From: Deltaproteobacteria bacterium
Lineage (GTDB): Bacteria; Desulfobacterota; Dissulfuribacteria; Dissulfuribacterales; DYLC01
Reading direction: 5' to 3'
DNA: 64,000 nucleotides
Assembly: GCA_028695735.1 (NCBI GenBank)
Contig: JAQVIJ010000001.1
Location: 361,081 to 425,080 of the forward strand
Under the pieces are notes generated by a model that saw nothing but the letters and a program-made list of their open reading frames with translations, searched no databases and had not been told where the DNA came from. Made by a program: the position numbers and the translations under genes. Shown here piece after piece: positions 2,449 to 13,514 of this stretch (positions within the stretch are counted from its first letter, which is position 1; every line of letters begins with the position of its first letter).

Positions 2449-3751
2449 GTGCGTCTCCATAATCATAACGATTGCGTCTCATCACGCTCTCATACGCATA
2501 CGCCGGCACGCCAGCGCCAGCAGCCGATACTGCCAATGCTAAAGACCAAAATCTATCCGCATGCCCACCTGCATCCCTGTCTGCCAGCAGCCTTGGCACA
2601 CCGCCAGCGCCTGACTCCATACGCACAGACCTGAGATCGTCAATCATGGCAGCCCTCTCGGACTCCGTGACAGGCAGCAACAACCGCCGAGCCTGCAGGC
2701 GATCCTTGAGTGCCACCGCCATGTCCAGCTTGGCAGATGGCGTAAATATCACGCCTGTCACACGATATTGCCCGTGCCTGCGCTGTGCCTCCTGCACTGG
2801 CATCTCGCCCATGCCTGTTTGGTCTATGGCGACACGCACCACACGATATGCACGCATCACGGCATCTAACCGAGCGAGTTGTGCAGCAAAGCTCTCTCCT
2901 CGCATCACCTGCATATCACGCAGCGCAAGCACGCCAGAGCCAATATCCTCCAGCACAGATATCACAGATAGGTCTCCACGAGCAGCTATATCCATACCAA
3001 CATATACAGGTCTACCGTCATAAGGTGGCAGTGGCTGCGCATCCAATGCAGCCAATATCTCGTCATAACCCAGCCACTCCCGGCCTGCTCGGTCAAGGAA
3101 CGCACACTCAAACTCCTGCGACCATGTGTCTGGATCACGGCAAGCCTTGCGCAGCTCGGTTATGTCGCGGGGCAAACCATCGGCCACCGCATCATAGATC
3201 GTGACAATATGTCGTGAGAACAATCCTCCCAGCCCATCAGTCATTATCTCATGGAACATGTCGCCCTTGCCGTTAGGGGTGCTTATCACACGGAGCTTGA
3301 GGTCGGGTCTGGATACTACCGGCACAAGGGCACGCCACAATGCACGATTGTCCTTGTGATGCGCAAACTCATCGAGGATGAGATTGTCGCTCATACCGCG
3401 TGCTGTCTCTGGCTTGGCTGCAATGGCGCGGACATAGCTCCCACCCGAAAGCCTCACCATGTGCGCCAGCTCCTCGGCACCGATAGGCTCATCCAATACC
3501 TCATATGCTGCGCCGATGGCACGCATGTGCAGGGCTGCGCCATTGCGGATGGCATCCAATGCCCTGTCACGGGATATGGATAGGATAGTCCAGCGGGATA
3601 TACGGCCATTGGCCTCAGCATCGAGACAGTCCAATACCGCCTCTAAAGTGGTTGTAAATGTTTTGCCTGTCTGACGGCTCCAACATGCTGCCTTCCATCG
3701 GCTGGCATCTGCCAGATAACGGCGTTGGTATGGATAGAGGACTGACATCAT
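2435..3751 (-). CDS. Terminase large subunit, Mu gp28-like
   Basis: This 438-residue DNA-packaging motor ATPase/nuclease pumps phage DNA into the prohead. Visible motifs are a Walker A variant SRQTGKT (about residues 25-31), Walker B LILDEF (acidic pair at 127-128), and a nuclease-type acidic strand VGMDIAARGD (Asp about 254). The size is normal for Mu gp28 relatives. It follows the broken methylase with a four-base overlap and overlaps the portal gene by 14 bases. The start at 3751 (two consecutive Met codons) is accepted because the overlap pattern matches the rest of the operon. Confidence 0.92.
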   Translation of the reverse strand: MMSVLYPYQRRYLADASRWKAACWSRQTGKTFTTTLEAVLDCLDAEANGRISRWTILSISRDRALDAIRNGAALHMRAIGAAYEVLDEPIGAEELAHMVRLSGGSYVRAIAAKPETARGMSDNLILDEFAHHKDNRALWRALVPVVSRPDLKLRVISTPNGKGDMFHEIMTDGLGGLFSRHIVTIYDAVADGLPRDITELRKACRDPDTWSQEFECAFLDRAGREWLGYDEILAALDAQPLPPYDGRPVYVGMDIAARGDLSVISVLEDIGSGVLALRDMQVMRGESFAAQLARLDAVMRAYRVVRVAIDQTGMGEMPVQEAQRRHGQYRVTGVIFTPSAKLDMAVALKDRLQARRLLLPVTESERAAMIDDLRSVRMESGAGGVPRLLADRDAGGHADRFWSLALAVSAAGAGVPAYAYESVMRRNRYDYGDAHGKL

Positions 3752-9812: not shown

Positions 9813-11948
9813 TTATAGCCCCATAGCCCTCGCGAGCTTGGTATCCTCATCGTCATCCACCCCCAGCCTATTGAGCTGGTCGGCAGTTTTGCTGATCTCG
9901 ACCCGCCTGTTAAGCTCATCAATCTGTCGCTGCCTCGCGGACTTAATTCCCTCACTGAGCCTGCGCACCTCATCGCTGGGCTCGACCCATTGGGCAGTAG
10001 CATCCACCTGCGCCAATGTCGCATCCAATCCGAGCAGATTGGCGCGTGTGCCAGCCAGCTCAGCCTCATCAAGAGGCCCGCCTGCCTGCTGGATGCGCTC
10101 AGACATGAGCAGGCGTAATGCCTTGCGCCTGCGGCCTGCCTCTATCGCCCCATTTCTATCCGTAATGCCAAACACTCGCTCTGGCTCAGCCCAGCCGAGT
10201 ATGCGATTGCCATCCATGATATAGACACCGATATCATCTGATAGGATGTGAGGCACAGCCACAGTGACCTTGCCGGAAATCCCCATCAGGCAGTCCGCCA
10301 CATAGCGGATGCCATCCACGCTCACGCTGCCTCTAACCACCGTGCGGGTTGCATAGTCCGCAAACGCCAAGGCCAAGACCAGCCGGTCTATGCGCCAGGG
10401 CCGCCAGCCAGCCTCCATTGCTTGAGTCAGCTTTTGTTGGGGGGACAACCCCGCCATGTGCTCAGCCCTGGGCTGAGGTGTGACATGGTAGTCAGCTATC
10501 GTGCGGCGCAGCCAGTCCACCACAGCATCGTATGGAGCAAGCTGCACACCCTTGCCAAGGGTTGCCACTTTTTTGGTCATGCGATTGCCACCCACGTAAC
10601 CGAACCACCATCCGAGCCAGTCTGTGAGGTTGCCAAACTGCCCCTCGATGCGCTTGCCACGAGGTCGGAATGGGATGGATCGCACCACCTGACGCTCTGG
10701 CGGTGCAGTCGCAGCCTCATCGACCGCGAACTGCTGACCAGTGAGATCAGCTAACCGCTTGCACGCGACCAGCATCTCATCCCACTGGTACTCGGAGCCA
10801 TTGTCGAGATACAAGCGTCGGGGGGCACCAAATGGTGCCCGCTCACACATGCGAGCATAGCTGGCAGCTACATGCTCCCTGCGGATGCCCTCACCCTTGT
10901 CCAGGAGCACCGGGTCTATCCATAGCCAGTTGGTGGCGATATCATGCCACGATATGAGCCGCACATAAGCGGTGCTGCCATCGTCTCTCAGCACAGGGAT
11001 ATCCAGTGGCGTGATGTCGCCGCAGACCAGATCGCCGGGCATGAGCCCCTTGGCTGTGCGTCTGACAGGTGTTAGATGGTTGTCGTAGATGCCCTTGGCA
11101 TCCCGCATGGACTTGCCAGCCACGCGGAAGTGCTTGCCCTCAGCCTCCACATATCTACGTGGACACGGCACATTGAACAGACCAGCGCAGACCTCACGAG
11201 GCGCGCCTGCCTCCATGAGGTCTTTGGCTACCTTGGCGGTAGCCTTGAGCCAGCATTGGCGCTCAGATGGAGCTCCACCTACCCATGCTGACCTAACAGC
11301 CTGACGCATGCGATCAGCGAGGCTGGGCAGATCATCGCCTTGCCAAGAGGCAAGGGCTGCCTGCGCCCATGCCAGCCATTGCTCGGATATAAGCGTCCGA
11401 GCCTGTCCGCGATCCCTGCGCTGCCCCATGCGGGCAAGACCCACGAGACCATGCTTGGCTGCTATCTCGGCGAGCCGATAGACATGCTGCCAACTGCAGC
11501 CAAGAGACTTGGCGATCTCCTCTGCCATAGCCCTGCGACCCCGATGGCGTTCGGGGAGAGATAGGATCGGCTGAAGCTGACGCATGATGTCCCGCGCTCG
11601 GCTGAGACGATCATGGTCGTCATCACGGCAAGTGGGACCGAGTAGCTGTGGGATGAGGGTGTCGGGGGGGGTGGTCGGAGTGGCACCCGACAGATTTGGG
11701 ATATTAGTAGACATGATATTTGATGGGGATTGGGTTGTGGAGTGTTGGACTGTTTTCTGACGGCTCAGATAATCTTGCTGAGCCTCGAGGGGGAGCGAGG
11801 AAAGAGCGATCTCTATGCCTTTGCCTCGCAACCTGTTGCGGATTTTAGCTTTTTTTTGAGCATAATCCCTTATGCGCCGTTCTGATTTTGGCATACCAGC
11901 CAACCTCATTGATGCGATATCTTGTGGTGTTAACCAGATATCAGTCAT
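9813..11948 (-). CDS. DDE transposase A, MuA-like
   Basis: A 711-residue transposase that cuts and joins phage ends during integration and replicative transposition. The N-terminus carries the Mu-type winged HTH (TPQDIASMRLAGMPKSERRI). The catalytic triad is visible as Asp311 (VCGDITP), Asp382 (YLDNGSEY) and Glu435 (GKRIEGQFGN); the spacings (71 and 53) are close to those of MuA (67 and 56). A C-terminal Mu-transposase beta-barrel (about 545-610) and a charged tail of the kind that contacts ATPase B follow. The gene overlaps the Ner-like gene by eight bases. Confidence 0.96.
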   Translation of the reverse strand: MTDIWLTPQDIASMRLAGMPKSERRIRDYAQKKAKIRNRLRGKGIEIALSSLPLEAQQDYLSRQKTVQHSTTQSPSNIMSTNIPNLSGATPTTPPDTLIPQLLGPTCRDDDHDRLSRARDIMRQLQPILSLPERHRGRRAMAEEIAKSLGCSWQHVYRLAEIAAKHGLVGLARMGQRRDRGQARTLISEQWLAWAQAALASWQGDDLPSLADRMRQAVRSAWVGGAPSERQCWLKATAKVAKDLMEAGAPREVCAGLFNVPCPRRYVEAEGKHFRVAGKSMRDAKGIYDNHLTPVRRTAKGLMPGDLVCGDITPLDIPVLRDDGSTAYVRLISWHDIATNWLWIDPVLLDKGEGIRREHVAASYARMCERAPFGAPRRLYLDNGSEYQWDEMLVACKRLADLTGQQFAVDEAATAPPERQVVRSIPFRPRGKRIEGQFGNLTDWLGWWFGYVGGNRMTKKVATLGKGVQLAPYDAVVDWLRRTIADYHVTPQPRAEHMAGLSPQQKLTQAMEAGWRPWRIDRLVLALAFADYATRTVVRGSVSVDGIRYVADCLMGISGKVTVAVPHILSDDIGVYIMDGNRILGWAEPERVFGITDRNGAIEAGRRRKALRLLMSERIQQAGGPLDEAELAGTRANLLGLDATLAQVDATAQWVEPSDEVRRLSEGIKSARQRQIDELNRRVEISKTADQLNRLGVDDDEDTKLARAMGL

Positions 11949-12147
11949 GCGACTCTATCTCTTTTCGTAGTGCCGATATTATCTGGCGACTTATTCCGCC
12001 CAATGGTGCACGATCCTTATGCCACCATAGGTTGACAACACGACGCACTGTCACTGGCACGAAACTTTTAGCTCGTGCCCATGCCTCTACGGAGGGCCAA
12101 CCCGACCGCAAAAGTGCAATTTTGACTTGTATCATATTATCCGTCAT
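11941..12147 (-). CDS. Ner-like early DNA-binding protein (68 aa)
   Basis: This is the first gene of the early transcript, starting at ATG 12147 with GGGAGG six bases upstream. The segment 'SVEAWARAKSFVPVTVRRVV' reads as helix-turn-helix. In Mu, Ner occupies this place and shuts down the early promoter. Two perfect palindromes sit 12 to 49 bases upstream of the start and are natural targets for it or the repressor. Sequence identity with Mu Ner is not evident, so the name is by position and fold pattern. Confidence 0.7.
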   Translation of the reverse strand: MTDNMIQVKIALLRSGWPSVEAWARAKSFVPVTVRRVVNLWWHKDRAPLGGISRQIISALRKEIESHD

Positions 12148-12158
12148 GTTAACCTCCC

Positions 12159-12178
12159 ATACTGTATGATTACAGTAT
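12159..12178. promoter_or_regulatory. Perfect palindrome over the early start site
   Basis: ATACTGTA (12159-12166), four bases, TACAGTAT (12171-12178). It covers the early -10 hexamer and the expected transcription start. Binding here would block the early promoter, as a Ner/Cro operator does. No footprint data; inference from position and symmetry. Confidence 0.6.
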
Positions 12179-12201
12179 AACGCAACCTGTTGCGTTGTCA
12201 A
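12174..12201 (-). promoter_or_regulatory. Early (Pe-type) promoter
   Basis: On the minus strand a perfect -35 TTGACA (12201-12196) is followed after 16 bases by -10 TATACT (12179-12174), pointing at the Ner-like gene whose ATG is 27 bases further on. The spacing and near-consensus hexamers support a strong sigma-70 promoter for the transposition operon. Confidence 0.75.
12179..12196. promoter_or_regulatory. Palindromic operator filling the early promoter spacer
   Basis: AACGCAAC-CT-GTTGCGTT is a perfect 18-bp dyad that occupies the whole spacer between -35 and -10 of the early promoter. This is a classic repressor operator position. The CI-like repressor encoded divergently at 12314 is the likely ligand; the Ner-like protein is the alternative. 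Confidence 0.65.
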
Positions 12202-12219
12202 CAACATTTTGCTGGGATG

Positions 12220-12274
12220 TTTGCGTCCGATTTGCGTCCGATTTGCGTCCGATTTGCGTCCGATTTGCGTCCGA
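12220..12274. repeat. Five tandem 11-bp direct repeats (TTTGCGTCCGA)
   Basis: Five exact head-to-tail copies occupy 12220-12230, 12231-12241, 12242-12252, 12253-12263 and 12264-12274. The 11-bp period places each copy on nearly the same face of the helix. They lie between the early promoter and the repressor gene, where Mu has its operators and transpositional enhancer. A cooperative binding array for repressor or transposase N-terminal domain is the likely role (inference). Confidence 0.8.
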
Positions 12275-12313
12275 TTCTGACGCACGTTGCACGATTTAAG
12301 GTGTGATCTGAAT

Positions 12314-12857: not shown

Positions 12858-13514
12858 TCATATAATTCTAACACCTCCATCGGCGCCCAGAAGCGCATTC
12901 ACAAAGGTCTCGTATTGCTCCCTGTCCATGGGACAGTTGAGGTAATCACCTGCGGAATTCAGTGTGCTGTCGTAACGGGACTGACGAAAAACTATGGTAT
13001 AATCCAGGGAATCAGCGGATATGATGGGCGCAATGGCATCGTAAAAATAGAGATATTCCTCCCCCAGCAATCTTTTCAGGTCCTGCGCCAAGGGCTCGGA
13101 GGTCAGAGGACCTGTGGCAAGTATGGTCCATTCAAGGGTGGGGACCGTCGTTATCTCTTCCCGCCTGATACTGATCAGAGGGTGACTCTCGATTCTGTCT
13201 GTAATATACTGGGCGAAAAGTTTTCTATCCACAGCGAGTGCCTTGCCCGCAGGCACTCGCGTGGCCTCTGCCGCCTGCAGAATGAGTGAGCCAGCCAGAC
13301 GCATCTCCTCCTTCAACAACCCCACAGCCGAATGAATATCATCGGAACGAAGGGAGTTGCTGCACACCAGTTCCCCTAACAACGGACTTTTGTGCGCAGG
13401 CGAAAAGGAAACAGGCTTCATCTCAAAGAGTTGAACCGGAATACCGCGAACAGCGAGCTGCCAGGCCGCCTCTGAACCAGCCAGGCCGCCTCCCACAATC
13501 GATATGCAATCCAT
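12858..13514 (-). pseudogene. trmFO: trmFO, N-terminal part, disrupted by prophage insertion
   Basis: The 5' portion of the gene for methylenetetrahydrofolate-tRNA (uracil-5-)-methyltransferase, which makes m5U54 in the tRNA T-loop. It opens with the FAD-binding MDCISIVGGGLAGSEAAW; 'KPVSFSPAHKSPLLGELVCSNSLRSD' and 'YDAIAPIIS' blocks are typical. The full enzyme is about 440 residues, but here homology stops after about 214 codons ('FVNALLGAD'), and four or so more codons read into phage DNA before TGA at 12858. The remainder should lie past the other prophage end, outside the window. The gene abuts the MltD-like gene. Confidence 0.88.

Follow-up and report, generated by a model that had tools for sequence, protein, structure and literature searches.

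In the lac operon, the auxiliary operator O2 is located inside lacZ, about 400 bp downstream. In phage TP901-1, CI has the operators OR, OL, which overlaps the lytic promoter, and OD, which is located within mor; TP901-1 and related phages have this switch topology in common, while their operator sequences differ (PMC7250872). In phage Mu, the operator also serves as an enhancer of transposition, to which the transposase MuA binds (PMC3820752). For uncultured Mu-like phages, operators are not normally known; here, sequence comparison alone yielded a testable code, with class-specific sites, in nine such phages.

The locus under study lies in a 64-kb window (the whole stretch of DNA that was analyzed), and we propose that its operator is present in as many as three copies in the early operon: U, which abuts and overlaps the -35 hexamer, S, which fills the promoter spacer, and, 354 bp further downstream, D. 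The site at the promoter and that in the MuA gene very probably form a real two-place on/off switch, because the pairing of promoter and gene sites is retained in nine related phages, with a sequence particular to each. We give the three-place reading as a whole, with a CI-like repressor on U/S/D and D as an auxiliary operator, a probability of about 0.55. Judged by sites found in the sequence, the locus resembles TP901-1 in its divergent promoters, in one operator overlapping the lytic promoter and in an additional operator within an early gene. However, TP901-1 is an integrase phage of Gram-positive bacteria, and its distal site falls in mor, a regulator gene, whereas the phage described here is transposable and has its distal site in the gene for the transposase, at a codon position that is constant among relatives. 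With Mu, the locus shares the gene order (a repressor gene diverging from ner-A-B), an array between the early promoter and the repressor gene and a ner-like gene in the first position, but Mu A is without a copy of promoter DNA, and here the repressor is CI-like rather than MuA-like, the ner-like protein matches no Ner family tested, and discrete dyads are present on the promoter. A preliminary description of this promoter had also contrasted it with the diffuse repressor sites of Mu, which does not hold, since this phage family has a Mu-like multi-unit array besides the dyads. These features suggest how a CI-like repressor could replace the transposase-like repressor of Mu, with the operator/enhancer-like array retained. 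Like O2 of lac, the putative auxiliary operator D lies within the first large gene of the operon under control, though, unlike O2, it is conserved across phages and co-varies with the promoter copies.

Early genes of the prophage

The early promoter drives, on the - strand, a small ner-like gene, P0002 (11941-12147; 68 aa), in the ner position, and then the genes for a MuA-type transposase, P0003 (9813-11948, - strand; 711 aa; phrog_310, E=1e-51; Mu-transpos_C, PF09299), which carries D, and for a MuB-type transposition ATPase, P0004 (8757-9494, - strand; start codon uncertain; phrog_296, E=6e-31; AAA_22). Diverging from this promoter is the gene of the CI-like repressor P0001 (12314-12682, + strand; 122 aa; PF01381, PF07022, phrog_3037). 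Both PF01381 (28.3 bits) and PF07022 (26.9 bits) scored above the cut-off in P0001, as is expected of a CI/Cro-type DNA-binding domain, while neither a C-terminal self-cleaving (S24) domain nor a protease domain was found in this 122-aa protein; many CI-like repressors are without an S24 domain. A host gene begins past the repressor gene (12858-13514). The MuA-type DDE transposase adjoins the MuB-type ATPase, and the Mu-like gene order, with a divergent repressor gene and a small gene in the ner position ahead of A, was seen in the window as well as in relatives; the element is a Mu-like prophage. Its candidate ends (TGCGACA/TGTCGCA) are about 30 kb apart, at about -17573 to 12846 in window numbering (contig about 343,508-373,926), and no matching 5-bp target duplication was seen. 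On the right, two alternatives for the end lie 22 bp from each other inside a short direct repeat.

Neither P0002 nor any of five relatives had a Pfam match. A profile comparison of P0002 with the L064-type ner-position protein gave a probability of 3.5%, and no match to the Mu Ner family was obtained. Its predicted fold consists of four helices (mean pLDDT 83), for which a search of the PDB returned no hit below E=4. P0002 and its relatives constitute a small helical protein family without a Pfam model, with a weak match to phrog_8503 (function unknown). No matches to P0002 or P0003 were found in named phages. The MuA relatives used below were drawn from Thiobacillus and Tepidicella records, other genomes of Tepidicella's order and viral contigs; in the host's own phylum none was detected among 395 genomes. 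The MuA group of this prophage was not detected elsewhere in the host-phylum sample, but was found in Thiobacillus and Tepidicella. A P0002-type ner and a P0001-type repressor occur together in eight distinct loci, namely this window, L059, L080, L081, L084, L088, L089 and L093.

The early promoter and its dyads

The near-consensus promoter reported in the preliminary description was confirmed on the - strand. It is composed of a -35 hexamer TTGACA (12201-12196), a 16-bp spacer and a -10 hexamer TATACT (12179-12174), agrees with the consensus at 11 of 12 positions, and ranked best among nine sites when 2 kb were scanned. A Shine-Dalgarno-like GGGAGG (12158-12153) is located ahead of the ATG at 12147. 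An early promoter is present at the equivalent place in all eight loci: the -35 hexamer is TTGACA in L059, L080, L081, L088, L089 and L093 and TTGACT in L084, and the -10 hexamer of the relatives reads TATACT, TAGACT, TATAGT, TAGAGT or TACACT.

The spacer had been said to hold a perfect palindrome of 18 bp. The dyad is there, between the CI-like gene and the small ner-like gene (S, AACGCAAC-CT-GTTGCGTT, 12179-12196, 18 bp; 16-mer at 12180-12195), it fills the spacer together with one base of each hexamer, and its 8-bp arms are perfect; however, 16 of its 18 positions are symmetrical rather than all of them, because the central CT is asymmetric. Dyads with 8-bp arms and a spacing of up to 4 numbered only 16 in the whole window. 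Dinucleotide shuffles of the 63-nt promoter region yielded such a dyad in 32 cases out of 5000, and the symmetry of the spacer was equalled in 0.03% of shuffled spacers. The earlier proposal that this dyad is an operator gained support from a second copy within the early operon, from conservation of the site and from sequence co-variation between relatives, although the copy (11826-11841), like an array of five 11-bp units at 12220-12275, had been overlooked. A MerR-type spacer operator does not fit, as it needs a promoter spacing of 19-20 bp with an activator dyad and the spacer here is 16 bp long.

When the spacer 16-mer of each locus was compared with the stretch 19 bp upstream, the mean identity was 8.0/16, whereas all offsets from 8 to 59 averaged 3.9 (sd 0.9) (permutation p<5e-5, or 2e-4 when this phage, L080 and L081 were left out). 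This repeat at a 19-bp offset across the loci indicates that the promoter holds two operator copies, U and S, of which S is the downstream member. U (CAGCAAAATGTTGTTG, 12199-12214, - strand), which abuts and overlaps the -35 hexamer 19 bp upstream of S, is degenerate in this phage (9/16 identical to S) and clear in the relatives. The relatives retain the spacer site as an imperfect repeat, and their spacers are not significantly symmetrical, so a perfectly symmetrical spacer is peculiar to this phage. A matrix made from the relatives' U/S sites gave an equivocal result: it ranked D first in the 64-kb window in its 13-column version, and S only 257th, the latter because A replaces T at the edge of S.

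Over the -10 hexamer and the predicted start there is, as had been described, a different 20-bp palindrome with 8-bp arms (ATACTGTA-TGAT-TACAGTAT, 12159-12178). No second copy with up to three mismatches was found in the 64 kb, and none of the seven closest relatives has a counterpart. A LexA/SOS box was rejected as an explanation of this start-site dyad, for it requires CTGT-N8-ACAG and the spacing here is N6, and the host genome (97% complete) contains no recognizable LexA DNA-binding domain.

A copy of the promoter site inside the transposase gene

The 14-mer CGCAACCTGTTGCG occurs at 12181-12194 in S and, 354 bp away, at 11827-11840 in the MuA gene, and nowhere else in the 2.2-Mb genome; CGCAACNNGTTGCG likewise has exactly two occurrences in this genome, S and D. 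By simple arithmetic, a 14-mer match within 1 kb is expected by chance with a frequency of about 1.5e-5. The complete copy D (TCGCAACCTGTTGCGG, 11826-11841) lies within MuA codons 36-41. For each of the eight loci, we compared the promoter stretch with the next 1200 nt and recorded the position of the best 13-mer match, which was found at MuA codon 36-38.7 in 8/8 loci, with 12-13 of 13 positions identical. A divergent ninth locus, L102, which was examined after the claim had been formed, had its best match (12/13) at codon 35.7 (p=0.015), so that the pairing of promoter and MuA codon was observed in 9/9 loci of the P0002-type ner/repressor kind. In contrast, no comparable promoter match was found in the downstream DNA of phage Mu or of seven MuA relatives whose ner is of another type. 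The sequence of D varies among the loci and tracks each locus's own promoter element: it reads TCGCAACAGGTTGCGA in L080 and L081 (CCGC... in this phage), TCGCTCAAAAGAGCGA in L059 and also in L101, a contig that begins at the D region, TCGCTCAAAAGTGCGA in L093, TCGCACTAAAGAGCGA in L084, TCGCACTAGAGTGCGA in L088 and TCGAACCAAAGTTCGA in L089. A scan of the contig collection for ACGCAACNNGTTGCGT returned 46 contigs, all of which except the near-identical phage were taken as chance; one of them, L056, resembles the promoter layout and was dismissed, as it adjoins an integrase gene and no ner or MuA was seen.

The dyad symmetry of D is kept across the loci by compensatory changes (93.8% of cells paired, versus 80.3% when shuffled and 25-56% when slid), with changes on both sides in three of six pairs. 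The codon CGA is used at D in 8/8 loci, though it makes up 0-6% of the Arg codons in the same genes of the seven relatives, and AAA, also used at D, accounts for 0-33% of Lys codons in the relatives' genes. The outer CGC/CGA of D is partly explained by a conserved protein motif, R-x-K/R-x-RGKG, in the N-terminal part of MuA, whereas the match to the promoter is not so explained. From the copies, their positions, their conservation and co-variation and this constraint at the DNA level, we infer that a protein binds these sites, and U, S and D are highly likely to make up one functional operator set. A conserved regulatory site, which may act at a distance, would thereby be hidden in the codons of a transposase, where standard annotation misses it. 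The distance from promoter to D ranges widely, from about 360 to 750 bp, and therefore the helical phase that looping would call for is not conserved. Beside D, AAAAAAATTT at MuA codons 29-34 (L059, L080, L081, L084, L088, L089 and L093) is conserved at the DNA level in genes of 66-69% GC, and is possibly bent DNA or a site for a host factor.

An 11-bp array between the promoter and the repressor gene

The array at 12220-12275 consists of five 11-bp units in tandem (- strand, AATCGGACGCA). A multi-unit array was found between the promoter and the repressor gene in 8/8 loci, and its units fall into three classes: AATCGGAC (five units in this window, six in L080 and seven in L081), AATCGTGC (seven in L059 and six in L093) and AATCGGAAC (four in L084, seven in L088 and four in L089). 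Units of these classes were absent from the rest of the same loci. The 11-bp period, seen in this phage and in L088, corresponds to one helical turn. The classes agree with the recognition helices of the repressors (PEATIRSYL; SEGLIR; E[ST]L[VL]RKY) and with the N-terminal helices of MuA. A metagenome contig, L007, which is 99.65% identical to the prophage, has both dyads and three array units instead of five, meaning either a variable-number repeat in the control region or an assembly collapse. By analogy with Mu, the array may act as an enhancer. In L059 (1980-2070) and L084 (2941-2970, read on the reverse strand), units form long inverted pairs at 8-bp spacing, with arms of 15, 13 and 11 bp, and thus differ from the direct tandem units of this phage and L088. 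Another MuA relative, L064, has a different array between its early promoter and repressor gene (3189-3281), made of TTCCCCGCTT / AAGTGGGGAA half-sites in both orientations.

The proposed switch and its likely binder

We propose that a dimer of the divergently encoded P0001 most likely binds U and S, so that RNA polymerase could not engage the -35 and -10 hexamers and the ner-like gene, MuA and MuB would be off in the lysogen. D would probably serve as an auxiliary operator, either by making the repressor locally more concentrated or by closing a small loop in the DNA, and would stop transcription from reading through; that D acts by looping is a suggestion to which we give slightly less than even odds. 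The array would be a second control element, comparable to the operator/enhancer of Mu and bound by the repressor, by the N-terminal domain of MuA, or by both. Over the eight loci, matrix correlations linked D with the repressor (r=0.60, p=0.004), less with the MuA N terminus (r=0.46, p=0.02) and least with ner (r=0.26, p=0.10); for the array, the corresponding values were 0.69, 0.66 and 0.10. Since the loci are few and related and the repressor co-evolves with the MuA N terminus (r=0.67), the co-variation ranks the candidate binders without deciding between them, and the correlation of the array with the repressor means that CI might have its operator in the array and not in the dyads. The CI-like repressor is nevertheless favored for U/S/D because (i) a repressor must cover the early promoter in the lysogen, (ii) the sites are 16-bp dyads, which suit an HTH dimer, and (iii) the topology matches that of TP901-1; we consider the chances about equal that it is, or is not, their main binder. 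The dyads were at first attributed to the ner-like protein, on the basis of a CAACNNGTTG core seemingly shared by the P0002-type loci; this was abandoned, as L088, L089 and L093 are without the exact core and the co-variation favors the repressor.

The dyads could still belong to P0002, which, being made from this promoter, would shut off its own operon and leave the array as the operator of the repressor. U/S/D are confined to loci with a P0002-type ner, Ner of Mu acts at the corresponding junction, and the CI-like protein could be served by nothing more than the array, whose class-specific units match the recognition-helix classes of the repressors. However, the ner helix is nearly identical in L088, L089 and L093, whose half-sites are nonetheless CGCAC, CGAAC and CGCTC, D follows ner only loosely (see the correlation above), and the array, whose units begin outside the promoter, would not cover the -35 and -10 hexamers directly; we therefore regard this assignment as rather unlikely. 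The preliminary description had allotted one dyad to each of two regulators, CI-like and Ner-like. The start-site dyad would then be the site of the second, most likely the ner-like protein of this phage, whose helix (VVNLWWHK) has diverged from that of the relatives (IYDWGxR), and such a dyad is locally improbable by chance (11 of 5000 shuffles of the 31-nt start region alone). This allotment is not sustained by the single occurrence of that dyad and its absence from the seven closest relatives, and we judge it unlikely.

U/S/D or the array might also be sites for the MuA N-terminal domain, that is, a transposition enhancer rather than transcription operators, given that the Mu operator doubles as a MuA-bound enhancer (PMC3820752) and that the array classes match the MuA N-terminal classes (r=0.66 to 0.75). 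Against this, U and S are dyads exactly on the promoter, while the MuA domain would be expected on non-dyad units, which fits the array better than U/S/D and makes the proposal improbable. That D works at the RNA level, as a hairpin or a frameshift signal of the MuA transcript, and resembles the promoter by accident, might be suspected from its self-pairing and from an A-tract 9-12 nt upstream (5') of it in 8/8 loci, but the predicted fold is no better than that of shuffled sequences (z=-0.13), the alternative frames stop at differing places and the match to U/S is left unexplained, so we find this very hard to credit. It is equally implausible that both palindromes arose by chance in a promoter rich in A and T: the spacers of relatives are indeed not significantly symmetrical, yet the exact distal copy, the 9/9 positional agreement and the compensatory changes refute such an origin for the spacer dyad, whereas the start-site dyad may still have arisen in this way.

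We advance only tentatively the idea that an immunity operator is written into the codons of the transposase's N-terminal DNA-binding domain. On this view, the promoter sites, the codon-embedded site, the specificity of the repressor and the transposase segment would change together from phage to phage, so that immunity type and transposase specificity would be physically coupled, evolving as one module.

Spacer dyads in other MuA relatives

Four MuA relatives with an unrelated ner, L060, L085, L086 and L087, were also found to have a dyad in the spacer of the early promoter (p from <0.001 to 0.02). In this they are like the present phage, but their sequences and ner type are different, and they have neither an array nor a copy in MuA. 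Placement of an operator in the spacer thus appears to recur among these phages. The palindromes lie at 3023-3060 in L060, 3190-3220 in L085, 2880-2910 in L086 and 3727-3775 in L087, and in the last of these one half-site is present in two copies, in the spacer and over the start, which resembles the layout given in the preliminary description.
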